Assembly (NCBI RefSeq): GCF_011326735.1
Contig: NZ_JAANCN010000002.1
Coordinates: 186,001 to 250,000, forward strand
Direction: 5' to 3'
Source of the DNA: Phycicoccus endophyticus
Lineage (GTDB): Bacteria > Actinomycetota > Actinomycetes > Actinomycetales > Dermatophilaceae
Length of the DNA: 64,000 nucleotides
Part shown: positions 24,372 to 54,233 of the stretch, one piece after another
Layout of the letters: every line of letters begins with the position of its first letter
Position numbering within the stretch: position 1 is the stretch's first letter
Program-made: the position numbers and the translations under genes
The notes under the pieces: generated by a model
The model's database searches: none
Told to the model about the DNA's origin: nothing
Seen by the model: only the letters and a program-made list of their open reading frames with translations

Positions 24372-25742
24372 TCAGACGAACGAGCCCGGGTTGAGGATGC
24401 CGTCGGGGTCGAGCGCCGCCTTGACCCGGCGGTTGAGCGCCATCACCTCCGGGCCCAGCTGGTGCTCGAGGCAGCCGGCCTTGAGGCGCCCCACCCCGTG
24501 CTCGCCGGTGATCGTGCCACCGAGCCGGATCGCGGCGTGCATGACGTCGTCGAACGCCAGCCGGGCGCGGCGCTCGGCGTCGTGGTCGGTGGGGTCGTAG
24601 ACGATCGCCGGGTGGGTGTTGCCGTCGCCGGCGTGGGCGACGACGGGGATCTCCACGGCGTGCCGCTGCGCGATGGCCTCGAGCTCGGCGAGCAGCGCCG
24701 GCAGGTGGGGCACGGGCACCCCGACGTCCTCGGGCAGCACGGCACCGCGTTGCTCGAGGGCGGTGAAGTGCGCCCGCCGGGCCTGGACGAACATCTCGGC
24801 CTCCTCGGGGTCGTCGGTGGCGACGACCTCCTTCGCACCACTCACCTCACAGGCGGTGACGATCACCTCGACCTCCTCCGCACGGGAGGGCCCCGGTGCA
24901 TCCGACTGGATGAGCAGGAGCGCGCCGGCGTCACGGTCCAGACCCATCGGTTGGAAGTCCTCGACGGCGTTGACCGAGGCGCGGTCCATGAGCTCGACCA
25001 TCGAGGCGCGCACCGTGCGGCCGAGCTCGACGACCGCGGCGGCCGCGGCGGCGACGGTGGGGAAGAACGCGACGACCGTCGAGCGCGGCGCCTGCGCGGG
25101 GACGAGGCGCAGGACCGCGCGGGTGACCACCCCGAGGGTGCCCTCGGAGCCGACGAACAGCTTGAGCAGCGAGAGGCCTGCGACGTCCTTGACGCGTGGC
25201 CCGCCGAGGGTGAGCAGGGTGCCGTCGGCGAGGACGACGTCGAGGCCGAGGACGTAGTCGGTCGTCACCCCGTACTTGACGCAGCACAGGCCGCCGGCGT
25301 TCGTCGCGATGTTGCCGCCGATGGAGCAGATCTCGAACGAGCTGGGGTCCGGCGGGTACCACAACCCGTGGGCGGCCGCGGCCCGCTTGACCTCGACGTT
25401 GAGCGCCCCGGGCTCGACGACGGCCACCCGCGCGGCCACGTCGACCTCGACGGCGCGCATCCGTTCCAGGCTGAGCACCACCGCTCCCTCGACGCCCATC
25501 GACCCGCCCGAGAGCGAGGTGCCCGCCCCTCGGGGGACGACCCCGATGCCGTGCCGGGTGGCCCAGCGCAGCGTCTCCTGGACGTGCTCGGCGCTCTCGG
25601 CGCGGACGGCGGCGAGCGGCATTCCGGCGCGCGCGTCGTGCGTCCAGTCGTGGCGGTACTTCTCCACGACGTCCGGCTCGGTCGCGACGACCCCGGCGGG
25701 CAGGGCCTGCGCGAGCTCGGTGACGGCGTCAGCGGCGTCCAT
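24372..25742 (-). CDS. FAD-linked oxidase, GlcD/D-lactate dehydrogenase type
   Basis: 456 residues. The PCMH FAD-binding domain shows GVVPRGAGTSLSGGSMG and GNIATNAGGLCCVKYGVTTDYVLGL. The C-terminal FAD-oxidase domain ends GTITGEHGVGRLKAGCLEHQ, with the His-rich HAGDGNTHPAI segment before it. Such enzymes oxidise D-2-hydroxyacids (glycolate, D-lactate). No Fe-S partner subunit (GlcF) is next to it. The start MDAADAVTEL at 25742 is preferred; an in-frame extension upstream has no domain similarity. Confidence 0.88.
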   Translation of the reverse strand: MDAADAVTELAQALPAGVVATEPDVVEKYRHDWTHDARAGMPLAAVRAESAEHVQETLRWATRHGIGVVPRGAGTSLSGGSMGVEGAVVLSLERMRAVEVDVAARVAVVEPGALNVEVKRAAAAHGLWYPPDPSSFEICSIGGNIATNAGGLCCVKYGVTTDYVLGLDVVLADGTLLTLGGPRVKDVAGLSLLKLFVGSEGTLGVVTRAVLRLVPAQAPRSTVVAFFPTVAAAAAAVVELGRTVRASMVELMDRASVNAVEDFQPMGLDRDAGALLLIQSDAPGPSRAEEVEVIVTACEVSGAKEVVATDDPEEAEMFVQARRAHFTALEQRGAVLPEDVGVPVPHLPALLAELEAIAQRHAVEIPVVAHAGDGNTHPAIVYDPTDHDAERRARLAFDDVMHAAIRLGGTITGEHGVGRLKAGCLEHQLGPEVMALNRRVKAALDPDGILNPGSFV

Positions 25743-25820
25743 CCCCACACTCTCCCACCCCTCCTCCTTCAAGGGCGCGTTCGCGGTGGCCCGTCGCCAG
25801 AGCCTCCCCCCACTCGCCGC

Positions 25821-25860
25821 GAGTGCGCACCTGGTCGCTAGAGCAGCCGCCTGCGCACTC
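25821..25860. repeat. 40-bp repeat with 9-bp palindromic ends (copy A)
   Basis: Begins GAGTGCGCA and ends TGCGCACTC, exact inverted repeats, with a 22-bp interior (CTGGTCGCTAGAGCAGCCGC core). It matches copy B at 26853-26892 in 35 of 40 positions, same orientation. It lies between the divergent FAD-oxidase and AbiEi-like genes. Confidence 0.85.
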
Positions 25861-25942
25861 ATCACCGGGTTGTCCCGCGTACTCGTCCTCGGGCTGTGGA
25901 GAACTCCGCGGCGGCTCCCCGCCTCCCGGCCACACTCCGGGG

Positions 25943-26854
25943 ATGGACACCTGGAGCCAGGTCGCGGGCCGCCAGGCCGGCGTCGTCTCCTACCGGCAGC
26001 TGCGCGAGCTCGCGGTCGGTCGCGCGCTGGTGCGTCACAAGCTGGCGTCCGGCCGCTGGGTGCGCCGCACCGACGCGGTGGTCACGACGACGACCGGCCC
26101 CCTGTCGGAGGAGCAGCGTCGATGGGTCGCGGTCCTGCACTGCGGGCCCGGAGCGATGCTCGGCGGCCTCACCGCGCTCGCCGTCCGCGGCCTGCGCGGA
26201 TGGCCGCGCGAGGACGTCACCGTCATCGTCGAGAACGCCGACTCCTTCGACCCGGTCGAGGGCGTGCGCACGTTCCGGACCCGTCGCCCGCTCGACTCCC
26301 TCCGTGGCGACGACGACCTGCCGTGCTGCCGGGTGGAGCCGGCCGCCCTGCTCTGGGCGGGCCACGAGCCGCACCCCCGCTCGGCCATGGGCCTGCTGGC
26401 GGCCGTCGTGCAGCAACAGCTGACGTCGCCGGAACGGCTGGCCGCGTGGGTCGAGGCCCTCCGGCCGCTGCGGCGTGCACCGATGATCCGCGACCTCCTG
26501 CACGACCTCGCCGGCGGTTCGCAGTCGCTCGGTGAGGTCGACGTCGTGCGGATGTGCCGCGCGGCCGGCCTGCGGCCCCCGAACCGTCAGACGCGCCGCG
26601 TCGACCGGTCCGGACGCGTGCGGTTCACCGACTGCGAGTGGGAGCTGGACGACGGGCGCACGCTCGTGCTCGAGGTCGACGGCGGGTTCCACCTCGAGGT
26701 GGTGCACTACGAGGAGGACGTGCGGCGCCACCGGAGCCTGACCACACCCGACCGCATCGTCGTCCGCTGCACCACCCAGGAGCTGCGCCGCGAACCGTGG
26801 GTCGTCACCAACGACCTGCGCGCGCTCGGCGTCCCCCGTCTCGACGCGGCCTGA
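25943..26854 (+). CDS. AbiEi-type winged-helix protein with DUF559/Vsr-like nuclease domain
   Basis: 303 residues. The N-terminus (AGVVSYRQLRELAVGRALVRHKLASGRWVRR) looks like the wHTH domain of type IV AbiEi antitoxins. The C-terminus (residues ~225-295) looks like the DUF559/Vsr-like PD-(D/E)XK fold: DCEWELDDGRTLVLEVDGG, then HYEEDVRRHRSLTTPDRIVVR. In this fold Glu/Asp residues of E-V-D-G-G would bind metal. No AbiEii toxin partner is adjacent. The gene is framed by two 40-bp palindromic-end repeats, the downstream one overlapping its stop codon. Function unknown; a defence, genome-maintenance or repeat-linked role is possible. Confidence 0.7.
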   Translation: MDTWSQVAGRQAGVVSYRQLRELAVGRALVRHKLASGRWVRRTDAVVTTTTGPLSEEQRRWVAVLHCGPGAMLGGLTALAVRGLRGWPREDVTVIVENADSFDPVEGVRTFRTRRPLDSLRGDDDLPCCRVEPAALLWAGHEPHPRSAMGLLAAVVQQQLTSPERLAAWVEALRPLRRAPMIRDLLHDLAGGSQSLGEVDVVRMCRAAGLRPPNRQTRRVDRSGRVRFTDCEWELDDGRTLVLEVDGGFHLEVVHYEEDVRRHRSLTTPDRIVVRCTTQELRREPWVVTNDLRALGVPRLDAA

Positions 26855-26892
26855 GTGCGCAACTGGTTGCCGGAGCAGCCACCTGCGCACTC
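26853..26892. repeat. 40-bp repeat with 9-bp palindromic ends (copy B)
   Basis: GAGTGCGCA ... TGCGCACTC with interior ACTGGTTGCCGGAGCAGCC. Its first two bases belong to the TGA stop of the AbiEi-like gene, and it ends 22 nt before the nitrilase stop. Same orientation as copy A. The reverse complement of copies C and D matches it in 34 of 40 positions. Confidence 0.85.
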
Positions 26893-26913: not shown

Positions 26914-27720
26914 TCAGAGGCGTCGGTCGGCCAGGACGGGGAAGGAGGCGCGGTACTCGGCCGTCGTCGCGAGGTCGAGCTCGACGGACAGCACGACCTC
27001 GTCGGTGTGCGCAGCCTCGGCCACCACCTCACCGGTCGCCGCGACGACCTGGCTGTGCCCGCCCATCGGGACGTCCGCGTGCGTGCCGGCGGTGTTGACC
27101 TGGACGACGGCGCACTGGTTCTCGACGGCGCGGGCCCGGCCGAGCAGCCGCCAGTGCTCGACCCGCGCGAGCGGCCAGGCGGCGGGCACGACGAGCAGCT
27201 CGGCCCCGGCCTCCTGCTGGCGGCGGTACAGCTCGGGGAAGCGCAGGTCGTAACAGGTCGACAGCCCGGTGCGCACCGTGCCCCCCGCCCCGTTCGGAAG
27301 GTCGAGGACGACGACCTCCTCGCCCGCCTCCATGAGCTTCGGCTCGCCGCTGCCGAAGCCGAAGCGGTGCACCTTGCGGTACCCGGCGAGGCGCTCCCCC
27401 TCGGCACCGAACACCAGCGAGGTGTTGGCCAGCGTGTTGCCGTCGGGCCCCGGCTCCGGCAGCCGCTCGACGAACGAGCCCGCGTGCAGCGTCACCCCCG
27501 CGGCGCGCGCGGCGTCCGCCATCGCTGCCGACCACGGGCCGTCGAGCGGCTGCGCCTCGCCCTCCCAGCGCCGGTAGTCGAAGCCCGTCGGGGCCCACAG
27601 CTCCGGCAGGACGACGAGGTCGTGCCCGGCCTGCGCGGCGACGAGGCCGGCGACGCGCTCCACGCGCGCCCCGAACGGCTCCTCGTCCCCGTAGGACAGC
27701 TGGACGGCGGCGATGCGCAT
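26914..27720 (-). CDS. Carbon-nitrogen hydrolase (nitrilase superfamily, Nit2-like amidase)
   Basis: 268 residues with the nitrilase triad: Glu40 in VVLPELW, Lys116 in GYRKVHRFG and Cys156 in STCYDLRFPE. Family members hydrolyse small omega-amides or deaminated glutathione-like metabolites in the cytoplasm. The start is MRIAAVQLSYGDEE, the first residue of the conserved first strand. It is separated by 37 nt from the upstream CopD-CtaG gene on the same strand. The exact substrate is not predictable. Confidence 0.9.
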   Translation of the reverse strand: MRIAAVQLSYGDEEPFGARVERVAGLVAAQAGHDLVVLPELWAPTGFDYRRWEGEAQPLDGPWSAAMADAARAAGVTLHAGSFVERLPEPGPDGNTLANTSLVFGAEGERLAGYRKVHRFGFGSGEPKLMEAGEEVVVLDLPNGAGGTVRTGLSTCYDLRFPELYRRQQEAGAELLVVPAAWPLARVEHWRLLGRARAVENQCAVVQVNTAGTHADVPMGGHSQVVAATGEVVAEAAHTDEVVLSVELDLATTAEYRASFPVLADRRL

Positions 27721-27757
27721 GCCACATTCTCCCTCGGGCTCGGGCAGGTCCGGGTGG

Positions 27758-29746
27758 TCAGTGCGGCTCGAGGTGCTGGGCCTCCTCGCGCAGGCGGGCC
27801 AGCCGGGCGTTGTACGCCTCGAGCTCGGCGTCACCGTCGCGGTCGGCCTGCCGGTCGCGCCGGGCCGTCTCGAGCGTCTCCCGGCGGAACCACTGCGCCG
27901 CGACGACGACGGCGAGCACGAGCGTCGGGGCCTCGCCGATGCCCCAGGCGATCTCGCCCGCGGTGTGCTGGTCCGCGAGCGGGTCGGTCATCCAGGGCAG
28001 GTCGATCGTCGTGAAGAAGTCCGGCGCGAGCAGCGTCGTGCTCCCGGTGAGCACGACGCCGAAGAAGGCGTGGAAGGACACCGTGGCGAAGAGGATGACG
28101 AGCAGCATCAGCGGGGACCACCGCGGCACGCCGGGGTCGATGCCGATCATCACCCAGACGAACAGGTACCCGGTGAGCAGGAAGTGGGCCATCATCAGCA
28201 GGTGCCCGGTGTGCGTCGTCAGGGCCAGCTCGAACAGGCCGCTGAAGTAGAACACCGCGAGGCTGAAGAAGAACAGGGCCGCGGCGACGACCGGGTTGGC
28301 CAGGACCCGCATCGCCCGTGAGTGGACCACCTGCAGGAGCACCTCGCGCGGGCCCCACGTGCGGTCGCGCCGCGGCCGGAGCGCCCGCAGCGCGAGGGTC
28401 ACCGGGGCCGCCGGGACGAGCAGCAGCGGCACGACCATCGCGACGGCCATGTGCATGACCATGTGGGCGCTGAAGAGCACCCGCCCCCAGATGCCGGGGG
28501 CGCCGCACGTGGCCCAGGCGAAGAGCGCCCAGCCGGCCACCCACAGCACGAGCCGCAGCACCGGCCAGGCGTCACCGCGGCGCCGCAGCCGGACGAACCC
28601 CGCCAGGTAGAGACCGACGGCCAGGACGCTCGTCGTGGCGAAGAGCCAGTCCATCCGCCAGGACAGCAGCCAGTCCGCGCCGGCCACCGGGCCGGGGTCG
28701 GGGTAGCCCGTCAGGGTGATGGCGATGCCCGGGTCGGGCAGCGCGTCGGGCACCGGGGGGACGCTGCGGGCCAGCACCGCCGCCAGGCCGACCGCGACGC
28801 CCATGACGACGAGCTCGGTCAGGGCGAGCCGGGCGAAGGCCCGCCCGTCGGAGGGGTCGGCCGCCAGCCGGGTGGCGATCGCGCGGCACTGGCGCCAGCC
28901 GAGGACCCCGAGCGCGGCGAGGACCAGCGCCTTGAGCACGACGACCGCGCCGTAGGCCGTGAGCACGCCCGAGGGCGACCCGAGCCGGATCGCCGCCTGC
29001 TCGAGCCCGGAGACGCCGACCGCCACGTAGGACCACAGCGCCAGCATCGAGTAGCGGCGCACCGTGGGCGCGAGGTCGCGCCCGAGCGCGGGCCGCATGA
29101 CGACCAGCGCGATCAGCCCGCCGACCCACACGACCACCCCGGCGAGGTGGAAGGCGAGCCCGTTGACCGCGTCCTCGTGGCTCGCCGACCCGGCCGCGTG
29201 CCCGGTGAGCGACTGGATGACGACCCCCGCGAAGGCGAGGACGGTCAGCCACGCCATCGGAGCCCGCCGCTGCACGAGCCGCGCGGAGACCGTGACGACA
29301 AGCGCCGCGAGCACCGTGAGGAAGAGCACCCGGGTGACCTCGAGGGACCAGGTGAACGACAGCAGCTGGCGGGCCAGCCCCGGCGCGGTGAGCGGGGTGC
29401 CGGCGAGGTCGGCGAAGGAGGTGACGAGCTGCACGCTCGCCGCGGCGAGCCACACGGTGGCGGTCCCGGCGGCGAACCGCACGGCCCTCGCCCGCCGGTC
29501 GGTGCGCGCGCGCTCGGGGACGAGGAAGGCGGCGAAGCCGAGCAGGCCGACCGTCGCGGCCGAGGACAGGTCGGCGACGACGTCGCTGACCGGCACCATC
29601 CACCGCACGAAGGGCCCGGCGTCGGCCAGCGCGAGGGGCGCGACCGCGCCGGTGAGCAGGGCGGCCGGCACGAGGGCGACCAGGGCCGCCCCGACGGCGA
29701 CGACGAGGGCCCGCACGGGAGTGCTGCGCTCCGGCACGACGGTCAT
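27758..29746 (-). CDS. CopD-CtaG fusion: copper resistance/cytochrome oxidase assembly membrane protein
   Basis: 662 residues, very hydrophobic. Residues ~1-340 resemble the CopD (PcoD) copper-transport family (GHAAGSASHEDAVNGLAFHLAGVVVWVGGL). Residues ~370-640 resemble CtaG_caa3 (GPGIWGRVLFSAHMVMHMAVAM, HTGHLLMMAHFLLTGYLFVW, SFHAFFGVVL). The His/Met-rich transmembrane helices are suited to Cu handling for oxidase maturation. Such fusions are common in actinomycetes. The polar C-terminal tail is coiled-coil-like (AELEAYNARLARLREEAQHL). The ATG at 29746 precedes the first membrane segment; the long open frame upstream belongs to a shadow. Confidence 0.88.
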   Translation of the reverse strand: MTVVPERSTPVRALVVAVGAALVALVPAALLTGAVAPLALADAGPFVRWMVPVSDVVADLSSAATVGLLGFAAFLVPERARTDRRARAVRFAAGTATVWLAAASVQLVTSFADLAGTPLTAPGLARQLLSFTWSLEVTRVLFLTVLAALVVTVSARLVQRRAPMAWLTVLAFAGVVIQSLTGHAAGSASHEDAVNGLAFHLAGVVVWVGGLIALVVMRPALGRDLAPTVRRYSMLALWSYVAVGVSGLEQAAIRLGSPSGVLTAYGAVVVLKALVLAALGVLGWRQCRAIATRLAADPSDGRAFARLALTELVVMGVAVGLAAVLARSVPPVPDALPDPGIAITLTGYPDPGPVAGADWLLSWRMDWLFATTSVLAVGLYLAGFVRLRRRGDAWPVLRLVLWVAGWALFAWATCGAPGIWGRVLFSAHMVMHMAVAMVVPLLLVPAAPVTLALRALRPRRDRTWGPREVLLQVVHSRAMRVLANPVVAAALFFFSLAVFYFSGLFELALTTHTGHLLMMAHFLLTGYLFVWVMIGIDPGVPRWSPLMLLVILFATVSFHAFFGVVLTGSTTLLAPDFFTTIDLPWMTDPLADQHTAGEIAWGIGEAPTLVLAVVVAAQWFRRETLETARRDRQADRDGDAELEAYNARLARLREEAQHLEPH

Positions 29747-54131: not shown

Positions 54132-54171
54132 GAGTGCGCACCCGGCTGCCCCGGCCACCACTTGCGCACTC
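54132..54171. repeat. 40-bp repeat with 9-bp palindromic ends (copy C)
   Basis: GAGTGCGCA ... TGCGCACTC with interior CCCGGCTGCCCCGGCC. It is identical to copy D, 62 bp downstream. Its reverse complement matches copy B at 26853 in 34 of 40 positions, so it belongs to the same family in the opposite orientation. Downstream of galE. Confidence 0.9.
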
Positions 54172-54193
54172 ACCACCCGCGGGCCCCCACCGC

Positions 54194-54233
54194 GAGTGCG
54201 CACCCGGCTGCCCCGGCCACCACTTGCGCACTC
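54194..54233. repeat. 40-bp repeat with 9-bp palindromic ends (copy D)
   Basis: Base-for-base identical to copy C, separated from it by 22 bp. The pair can fold into two identical hairpins ending galE transcription, and lies about 110 nt upstream of the cydA start. Confidence 0.9.

Follow-up and report, generated by a model that had tools for sequence, protein, structure and literature searches.

The window, as we call the whole 64,000-nucleotide stretch of DNA analysed here, holds a gene for an AbiEi-like, putatively PD-(D/E)XK protein between two copies of a short dispersed palindrome. Our preferred reading, to which we give a probability of roughly 0.57, is that the palindromes form a family with a single dedicated gene, a partnership akin to REP/RAYT with an AbiEi-type winged-helix/PD-(D/E)XK protein in place of the Y1 transposase. 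A preliminary description of this DNA had already drawn the REP/RAYT parallel; copy number and matching flanks bear out the link, but the protein is not a RAYT, a Pfam scan of 40 members of its family having matched no Y1 transposase model.

A gene between two palindromes

The two 40-bp elements that bracket the gene (Table 1) carry exact GAGTGCGCA/TGCGCACTC ends and, by count from their sequences, are identical at 35 of 40 positions, both in agreement with the preliminary description. The second element also meets the stop codon, as had been claimed, starting at the second base of the TGA (26852–26854); without that codon, the coding part spans 25943–26851. The two further copies reported elsewhere in the window were likewise recovered, identical to each other, and form a doublet (54132–54233) with a start-to-start distance of 62 bp and no nuclease gene in between. 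None of 100 dinucleotide-preserving shuffles reached the four pattern matches of the window, the maximum in any shuffle being zero, and a chance origin of the window copies is thereby ruled out.

Table 1 Palindromes, gene and neighbouring genes in the window
Feature	Position	Strand	Basis
Upstream palindrome, 40 bp	25821–25860	.	Exact pattern match; fold z -2.45 as single-stranded DNA
Downstream palindrome, 40 bp, overlapping the stop codon	26853–26892	.	Exact pattern match; hairpin z -5.09
Dispersed palindrome copy, first of a direct doublet	54132–54171	.	Exact pattern match
Dispersed palindrome copy, identical second member of the doublet	54194–54233	.	Exact pattern match
Gene for a 303-aa protein (stop included), AbiEi-like winged-helix and C-terminal DUF559-like (PD-(D/E)XK) region	25943–26854	+	ORF, profiles, motif
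Upstream neighbour, FAD-linked oxidase	24372–25865 (ORF as listed)	-	Pfam FAD-oxidase_C, E 1.4e-64
Downstream neighbour, carbon-nitrogen hydrolase	26914–27834	-	Pfam CN_hydrolase, E 2.3e-43

Instead of recurring in hundreds of unrelated places, the palindrome has 17 copies in the 3.18-Mb, 21-contig genome, counted as forward matches with a fixed spacing of 22 nt and at most three mismatches, plus one 39-bp copy; one of 17 forward 22-nt-spaced matches (C14:165334) was dropped as non-palindromic. Exact GAGTGCGCA/TGCGCACTC ends with 18–26 nt between them occur at 10 places, and the reversed pattern, used as a control, gave no match under the exact search with 18–26 nt spacing and one match with 22 nt and up to three mismatches. 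The genome contains three doublets, with start spacings of 72, 72 and 62 bp, all of them direct by reading. Copies are mostly intergenic and many lie near gene ends, as judged with a simple GC3 gene caller, some of whose 'inside a gene' flags are probably miscalls. The true start of the FAD oxidase is probably lower than that of the listed ORF, near 25742, which would place the upstream palindrome between genes.

The preliminary description had seen in the protein an AbiEi-type winged helix joined to a DUF559-like nuclease domain. The former part is upheld by PADLOC AbiEi models, the best of which matches residues 6–129 with an E value of 9.4e-9; the latter is supported by relatives and is sub-threshold in the window protein itself, which gives E 0.11 for DUF559 and E 0.0077 for AbiEi_4, both under the Pfam cut-offs. 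Two PADLOC AbiEi models recognise 35 and 34 of 40 family members, Pfam AbiEi_4 recognises 12 and DUF559 seven, and the only Pfam families matched at E 0.01 are AbiEi_4, DUF559, AbiEi_1 and AbiEi_3_N. A family profile matches 3hrl_A, an endonuclease-like protein, with E 0.0013, and the D and E-x-D-G motifs of the two are aligned. The acidic residues are largely kept across the 40 aligned members (E198 and D230 in all 40, E244 in 37, D246 in 34). Loci L084, L089 and L091 are without the E-x-D motif; L084 and L089 nevertheless retain strong paired palindromes, so cleavage may be dispensable there. AlphaFold models built from two-row alignments were weak both for the whole protein and for its C-terminal part (pLDDT 41.6 and 66), and a Foldseek search with these weak models returned no significant match. 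The nuclease assignment of the window protein itself is weak.

Homologues and the palindromes beside them

Homologues were found in 38 of 58 related genomes; one in a Dermatophilaceae MAG is 69% identical to the window protein, and in a sample of the phylum 104 of 296 genomes contain homologues at E 1e-10. Eleven of the weakest matches from the search of relatives were left out of the counts. Eighty of 101 ORF matches, those with both ends and enough flank, entered a comparison of upstream with downstream sequence. At least 14 nt are shared between the two flanks of 49 of these 80 full-length homologues (a number that includes loci with long direct or minisatellite-like repeats, such as L078, L086 and L109), compared with 35 of 1584 mismatched flank pairs and nine of 345 other genes, two of which sit between known palindrome copies. 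The link passes the comparison with chance that the preliminary description had proposed, and many relatives that have the gene carry matching palindromes of their own. The count for other genes also rules out matching flanks as a general property of genes. Passes are spread over the genus (17/25), family (25/43), order (6/11) and L018 (1/1), and because the genomes are related, copy and flank counts are not independent. Hairpins with a score of at least 12 lie within 500 bp upstream in 42 of 90 cases and downstream in 37 of 87, compared with three of 79 control windows. The flanks of L078, L086 and L109 contain long direct, minisatellite-like or inverted repeats, not simple hairpins.

In the phylum sample, where 27 of 29 loci had full-length genes and were compared in the same way, five passed and 22 failed, against one of 702 mismatched pairs; hairpins were found upstream at eight loci, downstream at three and in none of 45 control windows. 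The link between gene and palindrome is therefore strong in the genus, family and order, and patchy across the phylum. Among mobile elements, 44 candidate stretches on viral contigs yielded no confirmed relative, plasmids gave no match for two query proteins, none of the 40 members matched PHROGs, and one phage-labelled record with a relative is unverified.

Most of the strings shared between flanks are hairpins, and their tips differ between lineages. This can be followed at the site between the oxidase and the hydrolase, where, by sequence, the FAD oxidase adjoins the gene in L018, L021 and L022 as well; the C-N hydrolase is present in all 12 genus genomes searched. At this same site the gene has GAGTGCGCA tips in the window, GAGTGCGGA in L018 and GTGTGCCC in L022, whose contig ends inside the palindrome, while L021 has two downstream copies with GAGTGCGGA and two uneven copies upstream. 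Gene and palindromes are jointly missing here in five genus genomes (G001, G005, G006, G007 and G011), which have oxidase and hydrolase 19–55 bp apart and neither gene nor hairpin. The spacers of G008 and G010 measure 151 and 188 bp and are also without a hairpin, and that of G004 consists of about 1 kb of other sequence. G009 (L136) lacks the gene and has a spacer of about 90 bp, in which a stretch near the hydrolase resembles half of the L022 palindrome and no longer scores as a hairpin. The more closely two proteins are related, the more alike are their palindromes, as measured over 63 loci (Mantel r 0.17, reached in 0 of 2000 permutations): at least 12 nt of palindrome are shared by 32% of pairs above 60% protein identity, 5% at 50–60% and 0–1% below.

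Hairpin structure and dispersed copies

Folding indicates that the GAGTGCGCA/TGCGCACTC element is a hairpin over most or all of its length, beyond the 9-bp ends. At L009 the 18-bp stem is perfect, with a loop of 4 nt (z -9.97), and three folded sequences from the window have z scores of -2.45, -5.09 and -2.91, with stems less perfect than that of the L009 copy. For the window type, we aligned 21 copies from the window's genome, L018 and G003 on an 18-pair stem and compared them with 500 shuffles, using five measures in all, two of which did not exceed the shuffles. Paired bases fill 89.2% of stem cells, compared with at most 48.1% in slid controls; the covariation score is 0.146 against 0.104 (reached by 2/500 shuffles), and 18 stem cells are changed on both sides against 10.3 (4/500). 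Neither the count of pairs altered on both sides (6 against 4.7; 85/500) nor that of further pair types (13 against 12.4; 227/500) set the same 21 copies apart from the shuffles. At pair 8/33, 14 of the aligned copies have C-G and five G-C. In another palindrome family, represented by 64 copies from five genomes, the bases at pair 10/31 are C-G 52 times and A-T 11 times, and those at pair 11/30 are A-T 21 times, T-A 10 times and C-G nine times. G003 has a version of its own: 11 of the 14 copies examined there carry A at position 10, compared with none of 50 copies from four other genomes. The palindrome is kept as a structure, with fixed tips and an inner stem that varies with compensation; Rfam gave no match in the six loci examined.

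Four palindrome types were counted in the 58 genomes. All matches belong to a single genus, and most come from genomes where the tip in question brackets a gene. With one mismatch allowed, the window type occurs in two genomes, G000 and G003; the latter, home to L021, has two copies. For the GTGTGTGAA palindrome, the C type is found in G003 (28 copies), G008 (31), G009 (15), G010 (17) and G011 (7), and in none of the other 53; it brackets the genes L052, L026, L030 and L055, in G003, G008, G009 and G010, and the G011 gene, L038, is bracketed by a variant tip, GTGGGTGAA. A G type with the same outer tip as the C type is found in G002 (12), G003 (3), G006 (12), G007 (11), G008 (14), G010 (10) and G011 (3), and in none of the other 51. 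It brackets L033 and L040, genes in G006 and G007; in G002, a draft of 710 contigs, no gene bracketed by the G type was found beside the 12 copies. G003, G008, G010 and G011 carry copies of an inner type unlike that at their own gene. A third family, borne by L111 and L103 and as a variant by L100, was counted forward in G009 (6) and G011 (1) and reverse in G011 (3) and G001 (1), with none in the other 55 genomes. In G011, the change from GTGTGTGAA to GTGGGTGAA is present at L038 and in the three G-type copies, but not in the seven C-type copies.

To locate gene-content differences of at least 300 bp, we aligned 340 kb of G010 with 380 kb of G008. A gene-content junction lies in 11 of 16 palindrome-bearing intergenic intervals, compared with 73 of 310 without a palindrome (odds ratio 7.1, p 2.6e-4); genes for this interval test were called with the same GC3 caller. 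A version based on midpoints gave 16/26 versus 35/307, which may be biased because alignments tend to end at palindromes and whose list includes one false element, and we therefore rely on the interval test. At one place G008 has 6.4 kb with GH92 and LacI-type genes between two palindromes, where G010 has a single palindrome; at another, G010 has 0.6 kb between two palindromes and G008 has one at that junction. Different inner types stand in aligned flanks of the two species at 3009932/415190 and 3159207/595438 (G010/G008), 3149978/584409 may be a third such case, and the G010 copy at 3008548 has no counterpart at the aligned G008 site.

Two further loci are of note. By eye, G010 seems to have two palindromes with tip TCGAGGTGAA, the type at L031, at 3148512–3148665, where the aligned G008 site (583678) has GTGTGTGAA; one intergenic site may serve more than one system. 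At L200 (1400–3320; G009 contig C1, about 107938–109760), two identical palindromes of another type enclose NmrA-like and TetR-type genes and have similar outer flanks; at the margin of this locus lies a weak homologue of the nuclease.

Mechanism, alternatives and known systems

We infer that the protein acts on the palindromes. Its winged-helix (AbiEi-like) region would recognise the conserved tips, and the putative nuclease region would nick or cut the palindrome, perhaps as an extruded hairpin or cruciform. Repair from another copy could then keep the copies of one genome alike and seed new ones, and cassettes between copies, the nuclease gene included, might be gained or lost through such inter-copy repair. 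Such repair of breaks would account for inner types that have switched in place, for versions peculiar to one genome, and for the gain and loss of cassettes. In its full form, with a non-transposase nuclease that cuts dispersed hairpins, repair that converts them to its own type and swaps gene cassettes, and palindromes that serve as docking sites for gene turnover, the system would be a new class of bacterial DNA element; we offer this scheme tentatively, as a possibility with the odds against it.

The main rival is that the protein is an AbiEi-type autoregulator, with the palindromes as its binding sites, the dispersed copies as its regulon and some other task for the nuclease-like region. 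In up to 35 of 40 members the N-terminal part does match AbiEi models, known antitoxins of the AbiEi type bind inverted repeats of 23 bp in the promoters of their own genes (according to excerpts of PMC7319586), and such a role would account both for tips that follow the protein and for the branch without the E-x-D motif. We nevertheless consider it unlikely: a second copy sits at the 3′ end of the gene, none of the 16 palindrome intervals lies between divergent genes (79 of 310 other intervals do), and pairing is kept by two-sided changes at unconserved positions, a feature superfluous for a duplex binding site.

Two other explanations leave the protein out of the process. If the palindromes were insertion or recombination sites served by another factor, the nuclease gene would be one of several cassettes, and both the position of palindromes at gene-content junctions and the other genes found between copies (GH92 and LacI in G008, a sigma-factor gene in G008, NmrA-like and TetR in G009) fit this. 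The excess of matching flanks in the family (49/80, compared with 9/345 other genes) and a palindrome type that tracks the relatedness of the AbiEi/DUF559-like protein make it quite improbable. The same excess tells against ordinary actinobacterial terminator hairpins, alike within a genome by chance and bracketing a gene that is not involved, as do the way the copies follow the presence of the gene and the lack of an Rfam match in six loci; although many copies fold well and lie close to gene ends by the rough gene caller, we regard this as very unlikely.

The best-known repeat population tied to one gene is REP/RAYT. As in the systems described in excerpts of PMC3116915 and PMC8266576, the palindromes of the preferred partnership reading are dispersed and intergenic, border a single-copy partner gene, occur as several types per genome and in doublets, and have tips that change with the gene. 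Unlike a RAYT, the protein is AbiEi-like and DUF559-like, without a Y1 (HUH) transposase match in 40 members; copy numbers are in the tens, not hundreds; the two gene-flanking copies have GAGTGCGCA/TGCGCACTC ends and no GTAG tetranucleotide beside them; and the three doublets in the window's genome are direct, unlike most REP doublets, which are inverted (excerpt of PMC3116915). The CGTC-tagged palindromes of PMC3733652 are similarly small and intergenic, with no Y1 transposase alongside, but differ in sequence and, in the available text of that paper, are reported without a partner gene, which the window type has.

With AbiE type IV toxin-antitoxin systems the window shares an AbiEi-like N-terminal region and inverted repeats near the gene, but the neighbours are the FAD oxidase and the C-N hydrolase, with no gene for an AbiEii nucleotidyltransferase toxin, and a nuclease-like region is added. 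The aligned D and E-x-D-G motifs of 3hrl_A recall DUF559/Vsr-like nucleases. From these and from Vsr-like homing endonucleases the system differs in having no known intron or target allele and in its tie to a dispersed palindrome family. Among papers retrieved from the open PMC library, no title or abstract opening connects a family of palindromes with AbiEi or DUF559 proteins. Under the partnership reading, the intergenic palindromes of actinobacteria would have a probable agent, and a large set of AbiEi/DUF559-like genes without an explanation would gain a possible function; specificity is open to direct testing, since every protein has a palindrome of its own. Another protein class, unrelated to RAYTs but with the REP/RAYT layout, would mean that partnerships of this kind have independent origins.
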